Assembly: GCF_006539345.1 (NCBI RefSeq)
Contig: NZ_BJMV01000005.1
Location: 1-64,000, forward strand
Direction: 5' to 3'
Source of the DNA: Acetobacter peroxydans
Lineage (GTDB): Bacteria; Pseudomonadota; Alphaproteobacteria; Acetobacterales; Acetobacteraceae
DNA length: 64,000 nucleotides
The translations under genes were made by a program, and so were the position numbers. Positions 43,091 to 50,732 of this stretch are shown here, one piece after another. How positions within the stretch are numbered: position 1 is the stretch's first letter; each line of letters begins with the position of its first letter. A model generated the notes under the pieces. It was not told the origin of the DNA and did not search any database. It was given only the letters and a program-made list of their open reading frames with translations.

Positions 43091-43881
43091 TTCTCTGATG
43101 TGGCCTCTGTGAGAAGTCCGGCGAAGAGTGACCCGGGCATCTGGTTGGCAACGGGAATACGGGGAATGGCAAAAGCATCGGCTCCGGGCCGCGCGAGACC
43201 GCCCGAGAAGGCGAAACCGGCGATGTAGCCCGCGCGGGCAGCGGCTGCCTCCAGTTCGGGATCGACGATACCATAGGGCCAGGCCAGCATTTCCACCGGC
43301 TGGCCAAGCCGCTTTTCCAGCACGGCACGCGAGCGGGAAAGCTGCGTGTCAACGAAAGCGCGATAGTCCTGCGGCGTGCGGTGCGCGCGCTCCTTGTGGA
43401 AATCGGGATGCCAGAAGGTATGAGACTGAATATCGACCAGTCCCGAATTCTCCATCTCCGCCAGTTGCTCCCAGGTCAGTGCGTACGGGGCATTGGAGAT
43501 TGCCGAGGGGTAGATGAACAGCGTCACCGGCAGATGCCGCTGGCGGATAATGGGATAAAGGTAAGTGTAGACTGATTCATGGCCGTCATCGACCGTCAGC
43601 ACGGCCTCACGACCGGACACCGCCGGGCCACGCCCCTGCCAGCCCTCGAACAGATCACGCAACCGCACGATTGTGTATCCATGAGCCGCGAGCCAATCGA
43701 GCTGACGTTCGAAGACGGGCACTGTCGTTGTCGTCGGACCAGCCCGCGCGGGATCGAAGCGATGATAGGCAAGGATGGGAATGCCCTCCCCAAGCGCGCG
43801 CAACGGCGCAAAGAGTAGAAGCAGCAGAACAACGCAGGAAGCGACCTTGTGCCGGGTCGCCGTGGGGAGAGCTGCCGTCAT
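43087..43881 (-). CDS. Secreted polysaccharide deacetylase (NodB family)
   Basis: 264 aa; start and stop both overlap neighbouring genes by four bases. An N-terminal signal peptide (CVVLLLLLFAPLRALG) precedes a NodB fold opening with IPILAYHRFD. Motif 1 LTVDDGH supplies catalytic and metal Asp, motif 2 SHTFWHP supplies the metal His residues, and EMLAWPYG is motif 3. It should remove N- or O-acetyl groups from an extracellular or periplasmic glycan, in the manner of PgaB-type proteins. It is paired with the DUF4015 glycosidase downstream; PgaB itself combines a deacetylase and a DUF4015-related hydrolase domain, so these two genes may represent a split version of that idea. Confidence 0.88.
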   Translation of the reverse strand: MTAALPTATRHKVASCVVLLLLLFAPLRALGEGIPILAYHRFDPARAGPTTTTVPVFERQLDWLAAHGYTIVRLRDLFEGWQGRGPAVSGREAVLTVDDGHESVYTYLYPIIRQRHLPVTLFIYPSAISNAPYALTWEQLAEMENSGLVDIQSHTFWHPDFHKERAHRTPQDYRAFVDTQLSRSRAVLEKRLGQPVEMLAWPYGIVDPELEAAAARAGYIAGFAFSGGLARPGADAFAIPRIPVANQMPGSLFAGLLTEATSEK

Positions 43882-44558
43882 GTCGCGGTGCGCGCCTCCG
43901 CCAGGAGCTGCCGCACCTCGGCATCCTCGACCTGCCGGAAATCGGCATAATGGACCCCGACCGCCCGGAAGTCAGACGGCGCAACGAGGCACACAAGGTC
44001 GTCGCACTCCGCCGCGAGATCAGCCAGCGCTTCAGGGGGCGCCACGGGCACAGCGAGCACGACCCGCGTGGCGCCGCCATGCCGTACCGCCCGGAGTGCA
44101 GCGCGCATTGTGCCGCCCGTGGCAATTCCGTCATCGACCACCACCACCAGCCGCCCGGCGATTGCGGGTGCCACGCCATCATACGCCGCCTGCTGCCGGG
44201 CGATTTCCGCGCGCTGCCGCTGCACCGCAGGCGTAAGCACCTCCCGTGAGACGCCGACCTGCCGCATCAAGGCCTCGTTCAACACCGGCTCCGCATTGCC
44301 GTCACCCGCGGCCGCGATGGCGCCGAGGCCGACCTCCTCCACACCGGGCACACCGATCTTGCGCACGAACAGCAGCCCGAGCGGGGCGCGGAGGCGGCGC
44401 GCGACCTCGAACGCCACCGGCACCCCGCCGCGCGGCAAGGCCAGCACCACCGGATGCGCCGGGGCCAGCGGGACGAGCGCTGTCGCAAGCCGCTGCCCGG
44501 CCTCCCGCCGGTCGCGAAATTCCGGCGGACCGGAGGCGACGAGAGCCGACGCAATCAT
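43878..44558 (-). CDS. Phosphoribosyltransferase family protein
   Basis: 226 aa, with four-base overlaps at both ends. Type I phosphoribosyltransferase fold: an N-terminal region (REAGQRLATALVPLAPAHPV, LALPRGGVPVAFEVARRL) and the PRPP-binding loop VVVVDDGIATGGTM. This family is regularly found next to, or fused with, erythromycin-esterase-like domains (fusions are known in mycobacteria), exactly as here. The base or nucleophile it uses is unknown. Confidence 0.88.
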   Translation of the reverse strand: MIASALVASGPPEFRDRREAGQRLATALVPLAPAHPVVLALPRGGVPVAFEVARRLRAPLGLLFVRKIGVPGVEEVGLGAIAAAGDGNAEPVLNEALMRQVGVSREVLTPAVQRQRAEIARQQAAYDGVAPAIAGRLVVVVDDGIATGGTMRAALRAVRHGGATRVVLAVPVAPPEALADLAAECDDLVCLVAPSDFRAVGVHYADFRQVEDAEVRQLLAEARTAT

Positions 44559-45892
44559 AGGCCGAACGGCCAGGTTTCGGGCGCACCGTGCGGCCGCTCC
44601 TCGCCCAGCGGCGTGACAGCGCCCGTCCGCGAGAACCAGACCCAGGCATCGAACTGTTCAGCCAGCGAGGCCTCGAAATAATGGCTCTGCAACTCGGTTT
44701 CCGGCCTGTAAACTACGCCGATCGCCCGCTCGCGCGCCAGCGAGGCTTGTAGCATCCGGGCCAGCGGGCCTTTGCGATTGCGCCATTCGGTGAGCGAGCG
44801 ATCATGACCTGCGCGGAGGAACGCGTGCTCGTAGCTATCAGGCCGGGCCGGGCGGACGGTTTTGACCTCCATCGGCGCATCCCAGTCGCTGGCTGCGGCC
44901 ACTGTGCCGGTGTCGGTGCCGAAGCCAATCAGCACGGCTTCGTCACCGTGGGCCATGCGACACAGTTCGCCGATATTGAACTGGCCTTCCCAGCCCATCG
45001 CTGTCGCCGCCGCGTTGCCAACATGCGAGTTGTGCGCCCAGACAACCGCCTTCGCGCCATCTCCGCGATGGGCGAGCACCGCTTGCAAGGTGGAAAACAT
45101 ATGCCGGTCGCGGAGATTCCAGCTCTCGGTCGAGCCTTGGTACATCACACGGTAGTAGCTTTCGGCGGCTCGGACGACACGGGCATTCTGCACCGCATCG
45201 AACCATGCCTCGCCATCGTTGCGCATATACTCGAGCCGGTGGACAAGCAGATCGCGAAGCTGGGCCACCACCGCATCCTCGCACCCATCGCGCCCGTGGA
45301 CGACAACCTCGCGGCCATAGGCGGCGGGCTGGTCCTGCCAAGGCGTAAGGCGGGCATAACGTCGGCGCGCGGCAGCGGCGGTCTCGGGATTCACCCGGTC
45401 CAGATAGGTCAGCACGGCATGGATCGACTCGCCAAGGCTGTATATGTCGAGGCCATGGAACGAAACCCTCTCGGCGGCTGCGTGGGCCTCGTTATGGCCG
45501 CGTAGCCAGTCCGCAAACCCTGCGACCTCGGCGTTGCGCCACATCCATGTGGGAAAACGCGTGAAAGCTGGCCCGCGCCACGGGCGGGCTGCGTGGTGAC
45601 GAACATAGTCATCAATACGCGCGGCGTCCGGCCAGTCGGCTTCGACCGCAACGATAGTGAAACCGTGGCGCTCGATCAGCCGCCGGGTGATAGCGGCGCG
45701 GGCACGGTAGAATTCCGACGTACCATGCGTCGCCTCGCCGAGCAGCACGACGCGCGCATCGCCAAAGCGATCGAAGAAGGCACCGAACGCTTCATCGTCT
45801 TCCGGCGAGGGAAGTGGTTCGGCGTGGCGGGCAAGAGCCGCGACCAGTTCCGGTGTGATGTCACGGCGATGAGCCGTTGCGTTCGTAGGCAT
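44555..45892 (-). CDS. Erythromycin esterase family protein
   Basis: 445 aa from ATG 45892, with AAAGG upstream; the frame is open to 46009 without support. EreA/EreB superfamily signatures: VVLLGEATHGTSEFYRAR with the key His, the FTIVAVEADWPDA segment, the RFPTWMWRN region and AVVWAHNSHVGN with a second conserved His. Only some members open macrolide lactones; most, like this one, have unknown substrates. It is the first gene of the ATGA-coupled operon, followed by a phosphoribosyltransferase. Very GC-rich compared with the genes on both sides. Confidence 0.88.
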   Translation of the reverse strand: MPTNATAHRRDITPELVAALARHAEPLPSPEDDEAFGAFFDRFGDARVVLLGEATHGTSEFYRARAAITRRLIERHGFTIVAVEADWPDAARIDDYVRHHAARPWRGPAFTRFPTWMWRNAEVAGFADWLRGHNEAHAAAERVSFHGLDIYSLGESIHAVLTYLDRVNPETAAAARRRYARLTPWQDQPAAYGREVVVHGRDGCEDAVVAQLRDLLVHRLEYMRNDGEAWFDAVQNARVVRAAESYYRVMYQGSTESWNLRDRHMFSTLQAVLAHRGDGAKAVVWAHNSHVGNAAATAMGWEGQFNIGELCRMAHGDEAVLIGFGTDTGTVAAASDWDAPMEVKTVRPARPDSYEHAFLRAGHDRSLTEWRNRKGPLARMLQASLARERAIGVVYRPETELQSHYFEASLAEQFDAWVWFSRTGAVTPLGEERPHGAPETWPFGL

Positions 45893-46066
45893 AGGCACAA
45901 CCTTTCTCTGCGGGCCATTTCCGGTACGATGACCAATTAGCCGCAAAAGCACTCCGAACCACCTTGATCCAACGCAAGACGATAGCCGCTCGACTATGGT
46001 ATAATGCAATAGTTTTTGAACATATCTCCGCCTGACAGTTAAAATCTGAACCGATGGAGTACACTG

Positions 46067-46285
46067 ATGCCTTATTCATCCGTTAACGATCTGCCGGACC
46101 GGGTTCGCCTACATCTGCCATACCATGCCCAGGAAATCTTTCGGGCAGCGTTCAACAACGCGTGGGTTGAATACGGCGCAAAAGGAGAAGACCCGGAAGA
46201 GGCCGCCAATCGCGTCGCATGGGCAGCGGTGAAGCGCAAATACGTCAAAAACGGCGACGTCTGGGTGGCACGCGACCGCGCCTGA
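46067..46285 (+). CDS. chaB: ChaB family protein
   Basis: 72 aa, normal for the family. The whole sequence is ChaB-like: MPYSSVNDLPDRVRLHLP, HAQEIFRAAFNNAW and the C-terminal AWAAVKRKYVKNGDVW. In E. coli ChaB was linked to the cation transporter ChaA, but the domain also occurs widely as a stress-associated protein. It is divergent from the erythromycin-esterase operon. Confidence 0.92.
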   Translation: MPYSSVNDLPDRVRLHLPYHAQEIFRAAFNNAWVEYGAKGEDPEEAANRVAWAAVKRKYVKNGDVWVARDRA

Positions 46286-46560
46286 GGGGCAGCCCGCCTG
46301 CGCGAATGCTGGAGCGACAAAGGTGAGCCGGTGTGCGTGCCCGATTTTTTACGCGTATCCGCCTGAAGCGGACCTTCTGGTTCCGCCTTCAGCCCGGACG
46401 TTCTAGGTCAGAGAGTTTGACCAGAAAAGCAGTCACTCATAATGACGGTTCGAACTCTACTCTCAATGAATTTTTACCACGCCTATACGTGGTCTCAGGT
46501 GATAAGTATATTTTTCATGGTCGAAGTGCAGCTTGCACAGCTAGGAATTGGGAGAGGGTA
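46286..46560. other. Leader region before the HNH gene
   Basis: 275 bases. An imperfect hairpin at about 46363-46393 (CTGAAGCGGA pairing with TCCGCCTTCAG, one bulge) may end chaB transcription. A TTGACC (46417-46422) and CATAAT (46438-46443), 15 bases apart, form a possible promoter with short spacing. An open frame runs through here in phase with the HNH gene but has no family resemblance. Confidence 0.4.
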
Positions 46561-47241
46561 TTGGCTATTGCGGAAAAAGATATCAAGCTGCTCTGGGGAC
46601 GAGCTGCTGGCCGTTGTAGCAACCCGGATTGCAGGGAGAAAGTATCGGAAATCAATGAAGCAGGAGAAAGCTATCTCGTTGGTGAGATGGCGCACATTAT
46701 CGCACGCCAAGCCAGTGGCCCCCGTGGGCAGACGGGCGGCGGCTCGAATGCCTACGACAATCTCGTTCTGTTATGTCCTACTTGCCATACCAAGATTGAC
46801 AAGTCGCCGGAGGGCAGCTTCCCAACTGAGCTGCTGTTAGGGTGGAAGGAACAGCATGAAAATTGGGTAGACAGTTGGTGTACAACAAGCAGAATGGCGT
46901 CTACCCAAGAATTGATGGAATTCATTGACGCGCTATTGGTGGAAAACAATCATTATTTTCGCAATTATGGCCCTCAATCGCAGGTGGCAGTAAACGATCC
47001 TGCCTCGTCGGCCTACACAATCTGGGTGGCTAGACGCCTTGACACGATTCTGCCGAATAACCGCAAGATTGTTCAAACCCTCGACTTGAACAGGAATTTG
47101 ATTCCAATCGAGATGGCACCGGTCGTAATGCTATTCAAGGACCACGCCACCAGCTACGAACAGAATCTCTATGAGAGAATAGCCGGATATCAGCAATTCC
47201 CTACTTCCTTCGCCGAAGCTGTCCGAAAGTGGAAAAAATGA
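46561..47241 (+). CDS. HNH endonuclease domain protein, first gene of a three-gene unit
   Basis: 226 aa from TTG 46561, which has GGAG six bases upstream. The frame is open to 46333, but that part shows no domain. N-terminal HNH/zinc domain: C-S-N-P-D-C (about residues 16-21), EMAHIIARQ with the first His, then SNAYDNLVLLCPTCHTKID with Asn, the second Cys pair and the terminal His. All expected residues are present, so DNA cleavage is plausible. The C-terminal 120 residues form a second domain (ENNHYFRNYGPQS, LPNNRKIVQTLDLNRN, KDHATSYEQNLYERI) that I do not recognise. The next gene starts inside its stop codon (ATGA). GC content is lower than in the flanking operon. It may be the effector of a defence or toxin-like system. 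Confidence 0.8.
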   Translation: MAIAEKDIKLLWGRAAGRCSNPDCREKVSEINEAGESYLVGEMAHIIARQASGPRGQTGGGSNAYDNLVLLCPTCHTKIDKSPEGSFPTELLLGWKEQHENWVDSWCTTSRMASTQELMEFIDALLVENNHYFRNYGPQSQVAVNDPASSAYTIWVARRLDTILPNNRKIVQTLDLNRNLIPIEMAPVVMLFKDHATSYEQNLYERIAGYQQFPTSFAEAVRKWKK

Positions 47242-47633
47242 CCAATGGATCAAACGATTTCGGCGTCGAGTGGCATCAGATTTGCTGGATTGAGCGCTGG
47301 CTCGGCAGGCACATAAATGTCCTGGATTTTACACGCGTAAATGACATTCAGTTTGACGTAATTCGCAAACGAGGTTGCGATATACACTTAATATGCCTCG
47401 ATGAATATACATGCACTCTGTCGCGCGTTCTAGAGGTGCTTGACGCTTTCCCCGTTGCCAATTTTCTTTATATTGGCGGCAATTGGAATAGCTATGAGAG
47501 GGCAGCAAAAGAATATTGCCTCGAAAACAAAATTGGCCTTTTCAACACCAATGAGATCTCAGGGGCTTTTCATCGCAATGATTTCTGGACTTACCATCGA
47601 AAAGCTCAGGATGGAAATCCGATCTACGGTTGA
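47238..47633 (+). CDS. Unknown protein, middle gene of the HNH/nucleotidyltransferase unit
   Basis: 131 aa from ATG 47238, sharing four bases with the HNH stop codon (ATGA); a GTG at 47229 is less likely. I do not recognise the family. It looks like an alpha/beta protein with alternating hydrophobic strands: DIQFDVIRKRGCDIHLICLDE, then VANFLYIGGNWNSYERA, and a C-terminal segment ending in HRKAQDGNPIYG. No signal peptide or membrane helix. Acidic and aromatic residues are frequent. The tight overlap with both neighbours suggests the three products work together. Confidence 0.65.
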   Translation: MTNGSNDFGVEWHQICWIERWLGRHINVLDFTRVNDIQFDVIRKRGCDIHLICLDEYTCTLSRVLEVLDAFPVANFLYIGGNWNSYERAAKEYCLENKIGLFNTNEISGAFHRNDFWTYHRKAQDGNPIYG

Positions 47634-47901
47634 ATCTCTACCCTTCGTTCAAGCTGTCTGGGGGTTCGGATCCTATTTTCGGGGAGAAACCAGTAGGGAC
47701 ATCGACTTACTCGTGATCGTCAATTGTCCTATTGACGAGTTATTGCACAATACGAAGACATTGCGTCACGCAATAGCCAAATTAGAGGACACGTTCGATC
47801 AACCCATTGATTTGCTGATCGTTACTCCCACGGAGTTTTTCGAGCGTCCTCTTCGCGACATGGATCAACTCGTCATGGTCTATCTGGCTGACGAGAAATA
47901 A
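47578..47901 (+). CDS. Minimal nucleotidyltransferase (MNT-like)
   Basis: 107 aa from ATG 47578; starts at 47551 and 47611 are also possible. The gene begins inside the previous one (56-base overlap in another frame). The pol-beta nucleotidyltransferase signature is clear: VWGFGSYFRGETSRDIDLLV gives G-S followed by the D-x-D metal pair. A third acidic position lies in PIDLLIVT. The size matches MNT proteins, which in known systems AMPylate a toxin partner (MNT/HEPN) or act in defence. Here the partner would be the HNH protein or the unknown middle protein instead of HEPN. Confidence 0.78.
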   Translation: MISGLTIEKLRMEIRSTVESLPFVQAVWGFGSYFRGETSRDIDLLVIVNCPIDELLHNTKTLRHAIAKLEDTFDQPIDLLIVTPTEFFERPLRDMDQLVMVYLADEK

Positions 47902-48310
47902 GGGCTGCGTTCGCGAAGGAGGATTCACCAGAGCTTAATGCCCTGCGGTTTGGAACCGCGAGACGCCAATCATTCCCCATCCCCAGGCCAGTCTTGTAAC
48001 TCGTCCGTTGCTAATAAAACGGCCAACTTCAGGCTCGACGCCGATGTCCGGCTTCTCGTCGTGTAGCTTCACACCGGACCTTCCGTATACCCCCCATAGT
48101 CGCCTGCCTGCTCGGCGATACGGCAGTAGACAGGCGGCAGATGCCCTTATTTCAGGCATTCATTCTTATCCGATACTTTTCATAAAACCAGACATCGGAA
48201 GTAAGACGGTCGTATTTATGCGCTGCTTCCATACTACGTGTTATTTTTGTGCATTTTTACAAAATGCACAATTTTTCGCTCCTTGAAAACTGCATAATAC
48301 TTTAGCCACA
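47902..48310. other. Gap between nucleotidyltransferase gene and broken hydrolase
   Basis: 409 bases without a supported gene. A minus frame at 47935-48159 (74 codons) contains a segment that could be the end of a beta-rich protein, but it has no start site or family and may be debris. A perfect AT-rich hairpin lies at 48248-48270 (separate entry). Confidence 0.45.
48248..48276 (+). terminator. AT-rich perfect hairpin with T-run
   Basis: TGTGCATTTT / AAAATGCACA, a 10-bp perfect stem with a three-base loop, followed by A and five T. It could terminate the HNH-nucleotidyltransferase unit, though it lies about 350 bases after the last stop; it could also be an operator. Confidence 0.45.
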
Positions 48311-48833
48311 GAGAATCTCTCCATACTTCGTCCAAAATCTCCATCCAAGCAAGCACCGTCGTCTCAGGATGATGACAAAATTACCAAACAGAATATTGAA
48401 GACCTTGCGCGCATTATCGCATCCGAAGCGCGCGGTTCCAATGAAACAGCGCAGACTATGGTTGGGTGGACTGACGTCAACCGCATGAAGAAACATCATT
48501 CCAAAAATGGTTTCTTCTGTCTGGGCAAATCATAGATCTGCACATGGCTACCCTCCTACCACGACCAGCCGTAGGATCGCGAGCGCCATCCTGACCGGTA
48601 AGGAAAAAAATAATAGTCAAGGCGCCGTTTTTTTCTATTCACCGCTTATCATGCCCAAAGAAGGAGATAAAAATCTTTCCCGATATGATATCAAGGGGGG
48701 ATTAGAAACAGTTGATGGCGTTCGCCGGAATGGCAAGCCCGTCAAGAACTATGCTCCAGGGTGGGCTGTTCCAGAGAGACGTGTACTGACGCCGGACATT
48801 CCGGAATGCACATTTAAATTCTATGAAGAGTAA
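48311..48833 (+). pseudogene. Frameshifted cell-wall hydrolase (SleB-like)
   Basis: Two frames together give one cell-wall-hydrolase-like protein. The first frame (about 48311-48505) reads NIEDLARIIASEARG...VGWTDVNRMKKHH, matching the LARIIYAEARGE...VLNRM core of SleB-type hydrolases. The second frame (48507-48833) continues ASAILTGKE, GAVFFYSPLIMPKEGD, GGLETVDGV and KNYAPGWAVPE, matching the later GAxxFYSP...W part. The frames differ by one base, and the switch falls at an AAAAA run at 48503-48507, a typical slippage site. No start codon with ribosome site is seen in the first frame. It could be a true pseudogene or a sequencing error. Its stop is six bases from the next gene. Confidence 0.65.
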
Positions 48834-48839
48834 TGAGAC

Positions 48840-49466
48840 ATGCGGTATCTGCTCCTTCCTTTGGTATTTTTGCTATTAACACCTGTTGCCTATGCAGACA
48901 CGTCGCTCCCTGTATCGAAAAACGTTCCCATTCCTCGCACATTCGAAGCACTTGAAGCGGCCGCAGCGCGGGCCAAAGTTACTCATTGTGGAACAGATGA
49001 CTGCAAATCCATGACTCTTCTGGATTATCTCGTTCGCAATGCAGCGCTTTATGAGGCAGGTGATGCAAACGGCATTGCGAGTATTACGGGAAGAAACCGA
49101 CTTGTACGGGCGGGTAAACGCCTTGATGCGCATCTTCTTGATCACCCAGAACTTTACGCACGTACGTGTACATTTTTTGTAAAATATCTTGATATCGTCG
49201 CAAGTGGTAACGAGACATATGATTCACTCTATGCTTCCATGGTTCCTGCTCAGATATTTCTGAGCGCAGTTGATATGGATCTACTGAGCGGCGGCCATTG
49301 CACGGAAAAAATTTCGCCTTTTTACCGACGAAAAGTTGAACGTACCAATACTGATTATGTCACACGTCTATGTATAGGTGGTTTTGAAAATCATAATCGG
49401 CCTGAGTCTACGTGTAGTATTATCAAGAGCAACGCGTTACCGGACGAGCAGATATCTCGCCCCTAA
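48840..49466 (+). CDS. Secreted Cys-containing protein of unknown function, possible immunity partner
   Basis: 208 aa. A clear signal peptide (MRYLLLPLVFLLLTPVAYA, cleavage after AYA near residue 19) sends it to the periplasm. The mature part is helical, with paired Cys residues (HCGTDDC, RTCTF, GGHC, RLCIGG, STC) likely to form disulfides. I recognise no family. It begins six bases after the broken cell-wall hydrolase, on the same strand. A periplasmic inhibitor or immunity protein against that hydrolase is one reading; an accessory factor is another. Confidence 0.6.
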   Translation: MRYLLLPLVFLLLTPVAYADTSLPVSKNVPIPRTFEALEAAAARAKVTHCGTDDCKSMTLLDYLVRNAALYEAGDANGIASITGRNRLVRAGKRLDAHLLDHPELYARTCTFFVKYLDIVASGNETYDSLYASMVPAQIFLSAVDMDLLSGGHCTEKISPFYRRKVERTNTDYVTRLCIGGFENHNRPESTCSIIKSNALPDEQISRP

Positions 49467-49857
49467 AGTTAATTCTTGAACGAGGTTTCCTACCTTTCTG
49501 TGTAGTACCATCTGTCAGGTTCTGACATTCAAAAATCCTACTTCAAATCTTCCGCTGGACCCCACCCCATTAGCTGCGTGTCTGTTCAAGGCATGAAAGA
49601 GACACGCAACTATCACTGACCTGGCCTGCGGTGATTCAGACACGCCCCCGAGAAGAAGCCCACAGACTGTTCGGCCTCCGGCACCCGTTCCGACAGGCTT
49701 CGCTTTAGATGCAACAGGCGTCAAAAACGATGATTTTCAGATTGTCGTCAGGCTCTCAAGTTCTGGCTTGTTCGTCGCACGCTCAAAAAGCAGCTTTTTG
49801 ATGAACCCAAGGCCGCGTAATACGCTGAATCGTCGAAAACGACGCTCGCCAGAAGAT
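49467..49857. other. Non-coding stretch before tRNA-Glu
   Basis: 391 bases with no convincing gene. It contains an inverted repeat TGCGTGTCT (49575-49583) / AGACACGCA (49600-49608) with a 16-base loop; a further CAGACACGC copy lies about 30 bases on. This looks like decayed sequence at the end of the accessory region. Confidence 0.45.
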
Positions 49858-49933
49858 TGGCGTCCCGTACGGGATTCGAACCCGTGTTGTCGCCGTGAGA
49901 GGGCGATGTCCTAGGCCTCTAGACGAACGGGAC
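49858..49933 (-). tRNA. tRNA-Glu (anticodon CTC)
   Basis: A 76-base cloverleaf on the minus strand. The acceptor stem GTCCCGT / ACGGGAC is perfect, the anticodon stem TCGCC / GGCGA encloses the loop CTCTCAC (anticodon CTC), and the T arm ACGGG-TTCGAAT-CCCGT is perfect. CCA is encoded. It borders the accessory region 39.3-49.5 kb and could have served as an integration site, although no integrase or repeated tRNA 3' end was found. Confidence 0.95.
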
Positions 49934-49985
49934 AAGCTGAGGCATGGCGCTTCTTAAGGAAAAAACGACCCGTGCACAAGTTTTA

Positions 49986-50732
49986 TTATTGAATGTGAAA
50001 CGCCACGGGTATCCGCCCGGTCAGAGGAGGATGGGCCGGCGGCGTGCACCGGATGGAGCGCGCGGTTAGTACGGCCTGTTCATCCAGATCATCGTAGCCC
50101 GTGCTGCGAACGAGGTGCGCTTCCACCACCACGCCGCCCGCGTCCAGCACCACCTGTACCAATGCCTCCCCTTCTTCCTTCAACTGACGGGCCATAACCG
50201 GGTAATGCGCGTGCACGGGCGAGCATGACAGGCTTTCAGCGCCTTCAGGCTGCGCCTCAGCGGGCCGCCGGGAAAACACAGGCACTGCTGCCTGCGTCGC
50301 AGCACTCCGGGCCACAGAAGGCGCAGCCACCGGCACGCGTGATGCAGACAATTTGCGCGGGAGAAGCGTAGATGGCAGTTCGCCGTCCTCCTCTGGCACG
50401 GTTGGCGGAGCCACACTCTGCAGCAATTTATCGCTCAGCACTGTATTTTGTTCCGGCAACGGTACGGGGCGGAGCACGGGAGGAACAGGCGGCTCAAAAA
50501 CCATAGCGACCGTAGCATTTTGCCCCCCTGCGGGACGCTCATGCGGCCAGAATAGCAATCCGCCAGCCACAAGCGCATGAACCGCCAGCACGCCGAGAAC
50601 AAGACAGCCCAACCGCCCATAGGCGCGCGGGGCGTAATCACCCTCAGCCCCGCCATCAGGCGGGATCAGCCGCTGCCGCATCTGGCTGGAAAACCATATA
50701 TCCGCATTGGGGGCTGTTCTTGCGTCATCCAT
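49986..50732 (-). CDS. tonB: TonB family energy transducer
   Basis: 248 aa. A cytoplasmic N-terminus of about 40 residues, one membrane helix (GCLVLGVLAVHALVAGGLLFW), a proline-rich periplasmic linker (EPPVPPVLRPVPLPEQ) and a C-terminal TonB domain (YPVMARQLKEEGEALVQVVLDAGG, RSTGYDDLDEQAVLTA) are all visible. It carries proton-motive energy from ExbB-ExbD to outer-membrane receptors. It is divergent from the DUF2946 and copper-receptor genes, with 136 bases between, so it may be dedicated to that receptor. No exbB or exbD is in the window. Confidence 0.92.
   Translation of the reverse strand: MDDARTAPNADIWFSSQMRQRLIPPDGGAEGDYAPRAYGRLGCLVLGVLAVHALVAGGLLFWPHERPAGGQNATVAMVFEPPVPPVLRPVPLPEQNTVLSDKLLQSVAPPTVPEEDGELPSTLLPRKLSASRVPVAAPSVARSAATQAAVPVFSRRPAEAQPEGAESLSCSPVHAHYPVMARQLKEEGEALVQVVLDAGGVVVEAHLVRSTGYDDLDEQAVLTARSIRCTPPAHPPLTGRIPVAFHIQ

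Follow-up and report, generated by a model that had tools for sequence, protein, structure and literature searches.

A conserved, obligately linked unit of three genes was found at 46561-47901 of the DNA analyzed here (the window, i.e. the first 64,000 nucleotides of contig NZ_BJMV01000005.1 of Acetobacter peroxydans, assembly GCF_006539345.1). Its three open reading frames (ORFs) are intact, lie on the forward strand, and overlap one another, encoding in this order an HNH nuclease, an uncharacterized 131-aa protein (hereafter MID), and a minimal nucleotidyltransferase (NTase). An earlier note on this DNA had described this layout, with a four-base ATGA overlap between the first two genes and a 56-base overlap created by the NTase start inside MID, and had proposed a toxin-antitoxin or phage-defense module matching no named system. 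The layout was confirmed in full (Table 1). No entry in PADLOC, Pfam, or NCBIfam spans the whole unit, so within these libraries the lack of a named match holds; a name was also missing from the listed titles and abstract openings of the literature searched, an absence that does not prove the unit to be unpublished. We consider it quite possible, if a little short of an even chance, that the unit is a mobile HNH-effector conflict module (i.e. abortive-infection phage defense, or a toxin-antitoxin unit so used) that is restrained by the NTase through MID.

The earlier note had asked whether the three genes travel together, and they do. Genome contigs were scanned with the HNH alignment only, yielding 98 relatives, of which 80 public loci were kept. 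The C-terminal domain of the window HNH was present in 71 of the 80. MID lay next to HNH in all 71 (as a fragment in L038), and the NTase was present in 70 (69 by filter, plus L035, whose NTase the filter overlooked within a long open frame and which was recognized by eye). The sole locus without NTase was L038, whose contig stops 548 bases past HNH and truncates MID. Nine loci with only the N-terminal domain of HNH served as negatives; two of them (L028 and L080) end at HNH, and none of the seven readable ones contained MID. Since the MID2 and NTase models were partly built from counted loci, there is some circularity in this linkage count as far as the long form of MID (described below) is concerned.

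As a two-way test, a sample of 398 genomes from the phylum of the window is still independent. The HNH profile had some match in 35 genomes, and five loci were full length, the window's own genome included. MID and NTase were adjacent in all five, and MID was found in none of the 25 other HNH-matching loci examined. Conversely, the genomes detected with the long-MID profile were exactly these five, and the short-MID profile detected four of them and none besides; thus, no MID occurred without HNH. Of the five loci, only L103 and L104 are new, since the window, L026, and L069 had already been counted above; the prevalence of the module amounts to about 1% (5/398 genomes). All three genes were also found in the six readable viral-contig copies and in five of five annotated plasmid and E. 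coli records. Furthermore, HNH, MID, and NTase showed correlated pairwise distances across 25 loci (r = 0.72, 0.63, and 0.76), with none of 2000 permutations reaching values as high. The HNH and MID genes overlap in 64 of 69 related loci, by exactly four bases in 48 of them, which suggests translational coupling.

The HNH protein consists of a Cap5-type zinc HNH domain followed by a helical C-terminal domain. Residues C19, C24, E42, H45, N67, C72, and H76 were invariant in all 44 aligned relatives, and C75 was present in 41, in agreement with the intact metal and catalytic residues claimed before. The window HNH carries the nuclease domain that marks Cap5-type proteins, and its closest solved relatives by fold were Cap5 effectors; the fold lists also included the type IV restriction enzymes EcoKMcrA and ScoMcrA. 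The best sequence match in the PDB was 9om4, an 'HNH endonuclease' of 435 aa (residues 1-116, E = 9e-30), for which no describing paper was found in the literature searched. The likeness to 9om4 stops where the HNH domain ends. The same applies to the PADLOC candidate PDC-M68A (model length 253 aa), which matched residues 3-110 (E = 3.1e-25); MID and NTase matched no PDC-M68 model. Matches to PADLOC SAVED_HNH stopped at residues 96-115, and Cap5-type matches in general ended by about residue 123. The remainder is a predicted helical bundle in which neither PADLOC nor fold comparison detected a SAVED domain. This bundle could still bind a ligand in a way of its own.

No clear relative of the helical domain was found. 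Among 339 genomes, it did not clearly occur on other effectors, and the four clear matches all came from HNH-carrying genomes. There was also one marginal match (L153, G506:C136:2937-3128, E = 6.7e-4); its long open frame is interrupted by a single stop, and neither HNH nor MID had a match listed for that genome.

MID is predicted to adopt a restriction-endonuclease-like fold lacking the (D/E)xK motif. The predicted order of its elements, H-EEE-H-E-H-E-H, contains the alpha-beta-beta-beta-alpha-beta core of PD-(D/E)XK proteins, and the nearest solved folds were mostly endonuclease domains (Can2, NucS, LlaBIII, BspD6I, FokI, and Ecl18kI). Most of the best structural matches belong to what we take to be the PD-(D/E)XK fold, i.e. 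Can2, NucS/EndoMS, Mrr-like proteins, and also the N-terminal domain of RPB5. While PD-(D/E)XK nucleases carry a catalytic (D/E)xK, the motif was absent from all 36 aligned MID sequences, with N, D, or R at position 55 and mostly E at position 56. Instead, MID displays an Asp36 and a Tyr57, both invariant in 36/36. Of the parts described earlier as unrecognized, the N-terminal half of HNH and MID have thus gained an assignment, the latter by prediction, and the C-terminal domain of HNH still stands alone.

Two forms of MID were observed. Short MIDs of 119-139 aa accompany HNHs that are 43-64% identical to the window HNH (L002-L027), and also occur in L029 (HNH 40% identical) and L036 (34%). 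The remaining distant HNHs are paired with a long MID of 190-224 aa. In hhalign comparisons, the short-MID profile aligned twice with the long form, once to each half (columns 110-217 with 97.7% and columns 6-116 with 97.3%), and therefore the long MID is a tandem duplicate, i.e. two fused copies of MID. The long-MID alignment used there still contained a spurious, position-picked ORF from L033, which was removed before the MID2 model was built. The equivalent of Tyr57 (Y156) was invariant in the C-terminal half of all 22 aligned long MIDs. The short MID may act as a dimer.

The NTase showed Pfam matches to Polbeta and NTP_transf_2 above the cut-off. Its motif in the window is GSX8DID, and GS and DxD were identical in all 37 aligned relatives, which bears out the signature reported before. 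The spacing between them was eight residues in 25 sequences, nine in seven, and seven in five; the third catalytic acid was D in 26 of the 37. The sole NCBIfam match was to MntA (E = 3e-5), with a score of 23.8 against a cut-off of 60. The PADLOC candidate PDC-S09, a small NTase under a separate PADLOC name, was weakly matched (E = 2.4e-6), and HNH and MID had no match to PDC-S09. The NTase of one relative (L031) displayed a weak cyclase match (E = 8.2e-5).

The carriers of the module are widely scattered. Among the 80 loci, they include Erythrobacter, Photobacterium, Marinobacter, Nitrosospira, Pseudomonas, Rossellomorea, Tenacibaculum, Chitinophaga, Chryseobacterium, Actinokineospora, and others, genera that presumably span several phyla. 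Several copies reside on mobile DNA. Two Klebsiella conjugative plasmids carry the module, with the same proteins in both, amid genes of an integrating conjugative element (ICE); it lies beside transposases on an Acinetobacter plasmid and close to an integrase on one from Ensifer. Viral contigs searched with the HNH profile yielded ten HNH loci, nine of them with the C-terminal domain. Six of the nine have MID and NTase, and the other three end at or within HNH. L147, one of the six, and L061 are one and the same DNA. Ten flanking proteins from the viral-contig copies were scanned and eight matched families, among them portal, terminase, and scaffold proteins (L141), portal (L139), terminase (L142), tail (L145), and integrase (L146); the single flanking gene scanned from L147 matched only a family of unknown function. 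The viral copies surfaced only with the HNH profile: the window MID had no match in viral contigs, and a tblastn search of 50,697 phage records with a long MID returned no relatives.

Some copies lie near defense genes. In Advenella (L017), the module is located between SIR2-HerA and Lamassu genes. On the chromosome of E. coli I4, which gave the only DNA-similarity match (71%) to a long-form module among 5426 E. coli genomes, it lies about 10 kb from an operon of nucleotidyltransferase, ThiF, Mov34, and SAVED genes that we read as resembling a cyclic-oligonucleotide-based antiphage signaling system (CBASS). The same E. coli region (L083:14989-31598) also contains two further HNH genes, an antirestriction gene, and a gene for a CbtA-family toxin. 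The survey of flanking genes covered 195 of the 291 flanking ORFs chosen in 27 short-MID loci, from 23 loci. With 25 of the 41 matched families listed, the SIR2, HerA, and Lmu matches all came from L017, and no locus was assigned to two mad3 matches or to one of two mad8 matches; the same holds for matches to PDC-S48, DEDDh, and pVip. A general residence in defense islands is not supported by this survey, in which the identified neighbors were mostly metabolic and defense genes could be placed only at L017. Ten proteins guessed from L019, L022, L023, L026, and L029 were also compared, and only a second HNH of L019 found a match. This larger protein (603 aa, L019:9598-11406) has a PDC-M68A/Cap5-like N-terminus and is encoded directly downstream of the module.

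Two named systems resemble the module in part. With the CBASS effector Cap5 (HNH-SAVED), it shares the Cap5-type nuclease domain; in place of the SAVED domain and the cGAS/DncV-like nucleotidyltransferase (CD-NTase) of that system, the module has the helical C-terminal domain and MID. With HepT-MntA (HEPN/MNT, a type VII toxin-antitoxin system), it shares a minimal nucleotidyltransferase (MNT) with a GS...DxD motif that is encoded together with a nuclease. However, the nuclease of the module is an HNH protein, no HEPN partner with RX4HXY was detected, and a third protein is present. In addition, the MNT motif has been defined as GSX10DXD (PMC7641770), while the spacing in all 37 NTases corresponds to GSX7-9DXD. 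MntA is reported to attach three AMPs to Tyr104 of HepT (PMC7641770).

A conflict module appears to be the best reading because the trio is obligate, its catalytic residues are conserved, and the unit is mobile and carried by viruses. In such a module, the Cap5-type HNH would be the effector, as suggested by Cap5, and its helical C-terminal domain may dock the partners. MID might serve as an adaptor that senses DNA or infection, its fold being present twice, either in a dimer (short form) or in a fused tandem (long form). By analogy with HepT-MntA, nucleotide transfer by the minimal NTase onto a partner would keep the complex inactive. A candidate acceptor is the invariant Tyr57 of MID, comparable to the HepT tyrosine adenylylated by MntA; it is proposed here on account of being invariant while the standard motif of the fold has been lost. 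Infection would then relieve the block, and HNH would degrade DNA. The most specific version, a three-component immune system in which the NTase nucleotidylates the invariant Tyr of an inactive MID sensor and thereby restrains HNH until infection, we regard as doubtful. If it is correct, Cap5-type HNH effectors can be under the control of protein nucleotidylation rather than of cyclic nucleotides, the MNT family would gain a new kind of client, and the system would combine the toxin-antitoxin logic of HepT-MntA with a CBASS effector that degrades DNA, no second messenger being involved. In any case, a widespread, obligately linked three-gene operon was found without a name in the libraries and literature searched, and the duplication of MID renders the adaptor hypothesis directly testable.

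Against a strong claim of defense-island residence, the neighbors in the 23 surveyed short-MID loci were, among the matches listed, mostly metabolic, and defense neighbors were pinned down in only one of the 23, a figure obtained without a control set. His replaces the third NTase acid in 9 of the 37 sequences, in the short-MID and long-MID groups alike, which speaks against activity in every member. The toxin-antitoxin or phage-defense function proposed in the earlier note would fit the mobility, the prophage carriage, and some defense neighborhoods, but most of the identified neighbors were metabolic. Those neighbors would fit a stability-type toxin-antitoxin cassette of mobile elements without an anti-phage role, as would the compact overlapping genes and the occurrence on plasmids, as ICE cargo, and on viral contigs. 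We nevertheless hold this explanation to be rather unlikely, given that the module adjoins defense genes in Advenella and shares an island with the CBASS-like operon in E. coli I4; to our knowledge, three components and a large effector would also be unusual for a pure stability cassette.

It is likewise unlikely that the system is restriction-like, with the MID fold and HNH directly recognizing DNA that is foreign or modified, and with a regulatory role for the NTase. The endonuclease domains among the nearest MID folds and the presence of EcoKMcrA and ScoMcrA in the HNH fold lists point in this direction, but the unit contains no methylase and the (D/E)xK motif is missing from every aligned MID. 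Signaling as in CBASS, with the small NTase producing a nucleotide signal upon infection and the C-terminal domain of HNH or MID binding it to start DNA cleavage, would make use of the same effector type. We judge it improbable, since no PADLOC cyclase model matched the C-terminal 95 aa of the window NTase at E ≤ 1, so that no CD-NTase was detected, and since HNH gives way after its Cap5-type part to the predicted bundle without SAVED or another recognized ligand-binding domain. The His substitutions in the NTases also count against it. Furthermore, the NTase with its 107 aa has the size of protein-modifying MNTs, given as below 150 aa in PMC7641770. A chance neighborhood is excluded by the conserved co-occurrence, and with the linkage extending over several phyla at a rarity of 5/398 genomes, chance or housekeeping genes retain a next to negligible probability.

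Table 1. Positions of the module, its domains, and its surroundings in the window
Feature	Position	Strand	Remarks
HNH nuclease gene	46561-47241	+	TTG start; 226 aa; stop 47239-47241
ATGA stop/start overlap, HNH/MID	47238-47241	+	from sequence
MID gene	47238-47633	+	ATG 47238; stop 47631-47633
NTase gene (minimal nucleotidyltransferase)	47578-47901	+	ATG 47578; 107 aa; stop 47899-47901
Cap5-type zinc HNH domain	HNH residues 1-108		
Helical C-terminal domain	HNH residues 109-226		marker of the three-gene module
Low-GC tract carrying the module	46250-49750		GC 0.44-0.55 in 500-base windows; flanks ~0.6 (composition profile)
tRNA-Glu(CTC)	49858-49933	-	ARAGORN; 3' end toward the low-GC tract, ~2 kb downstream of the module

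Database versions of two of the proteins begin further upstream (HNH with 250 aa, NTase with 153 aa). The shorter starts were adopted because they are kept in relatives: HNH begins with M-[AP]-I in close relatives, and the NTase with M-[IT]-S-G in three. The sequence upstream of the HNH start codon is GGGAGAGGG.

The module differs from its surroundings in base composition (48% G+C compared with 63% and 61% in the flanks), as expected from the accessory region of mixed composition described in the earlier note. The tRNA-Glu(CTC) gene is possibly an integration site. No repeat of at least 18 bases pairing with its end was found within 43500-50500, and since just 9 of the 60 related loci analyzed with ARAGORN had a tRNA, targeting of tRNAs as a general rule was rejected. 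When 40 other genomes of the genus were searched at the DNA level, with up to seven candidates scored per genome, none of the matches listed lay over the module, and a protein search of nine of these genomes revealed no full-length HNH. Two proteins of one of the nine (L154 and L155 in G387) matched only the N-terminal domain of HNH (E = 8.1e-12 and 5.5e-10); this HNH type therefore occurs in the genus in other architectures.

Further downstream in the window, 48840-49466 encodes a protein with a signal-like start and without a Pfam match. A cell-wall-hydrolase-like gene at 48390-48833 is apparently split across two frames, the second part showing a weak match to Pfam Hydrolase_2 (E = 0.031). 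Finally, where the earlier note mentions IS debris, a short dispersed repeat was seen near 48077-48195; many genomes of the genus contain similar copies (72-81% identity), and it is possibly the remnant of a mobile or repeated element.
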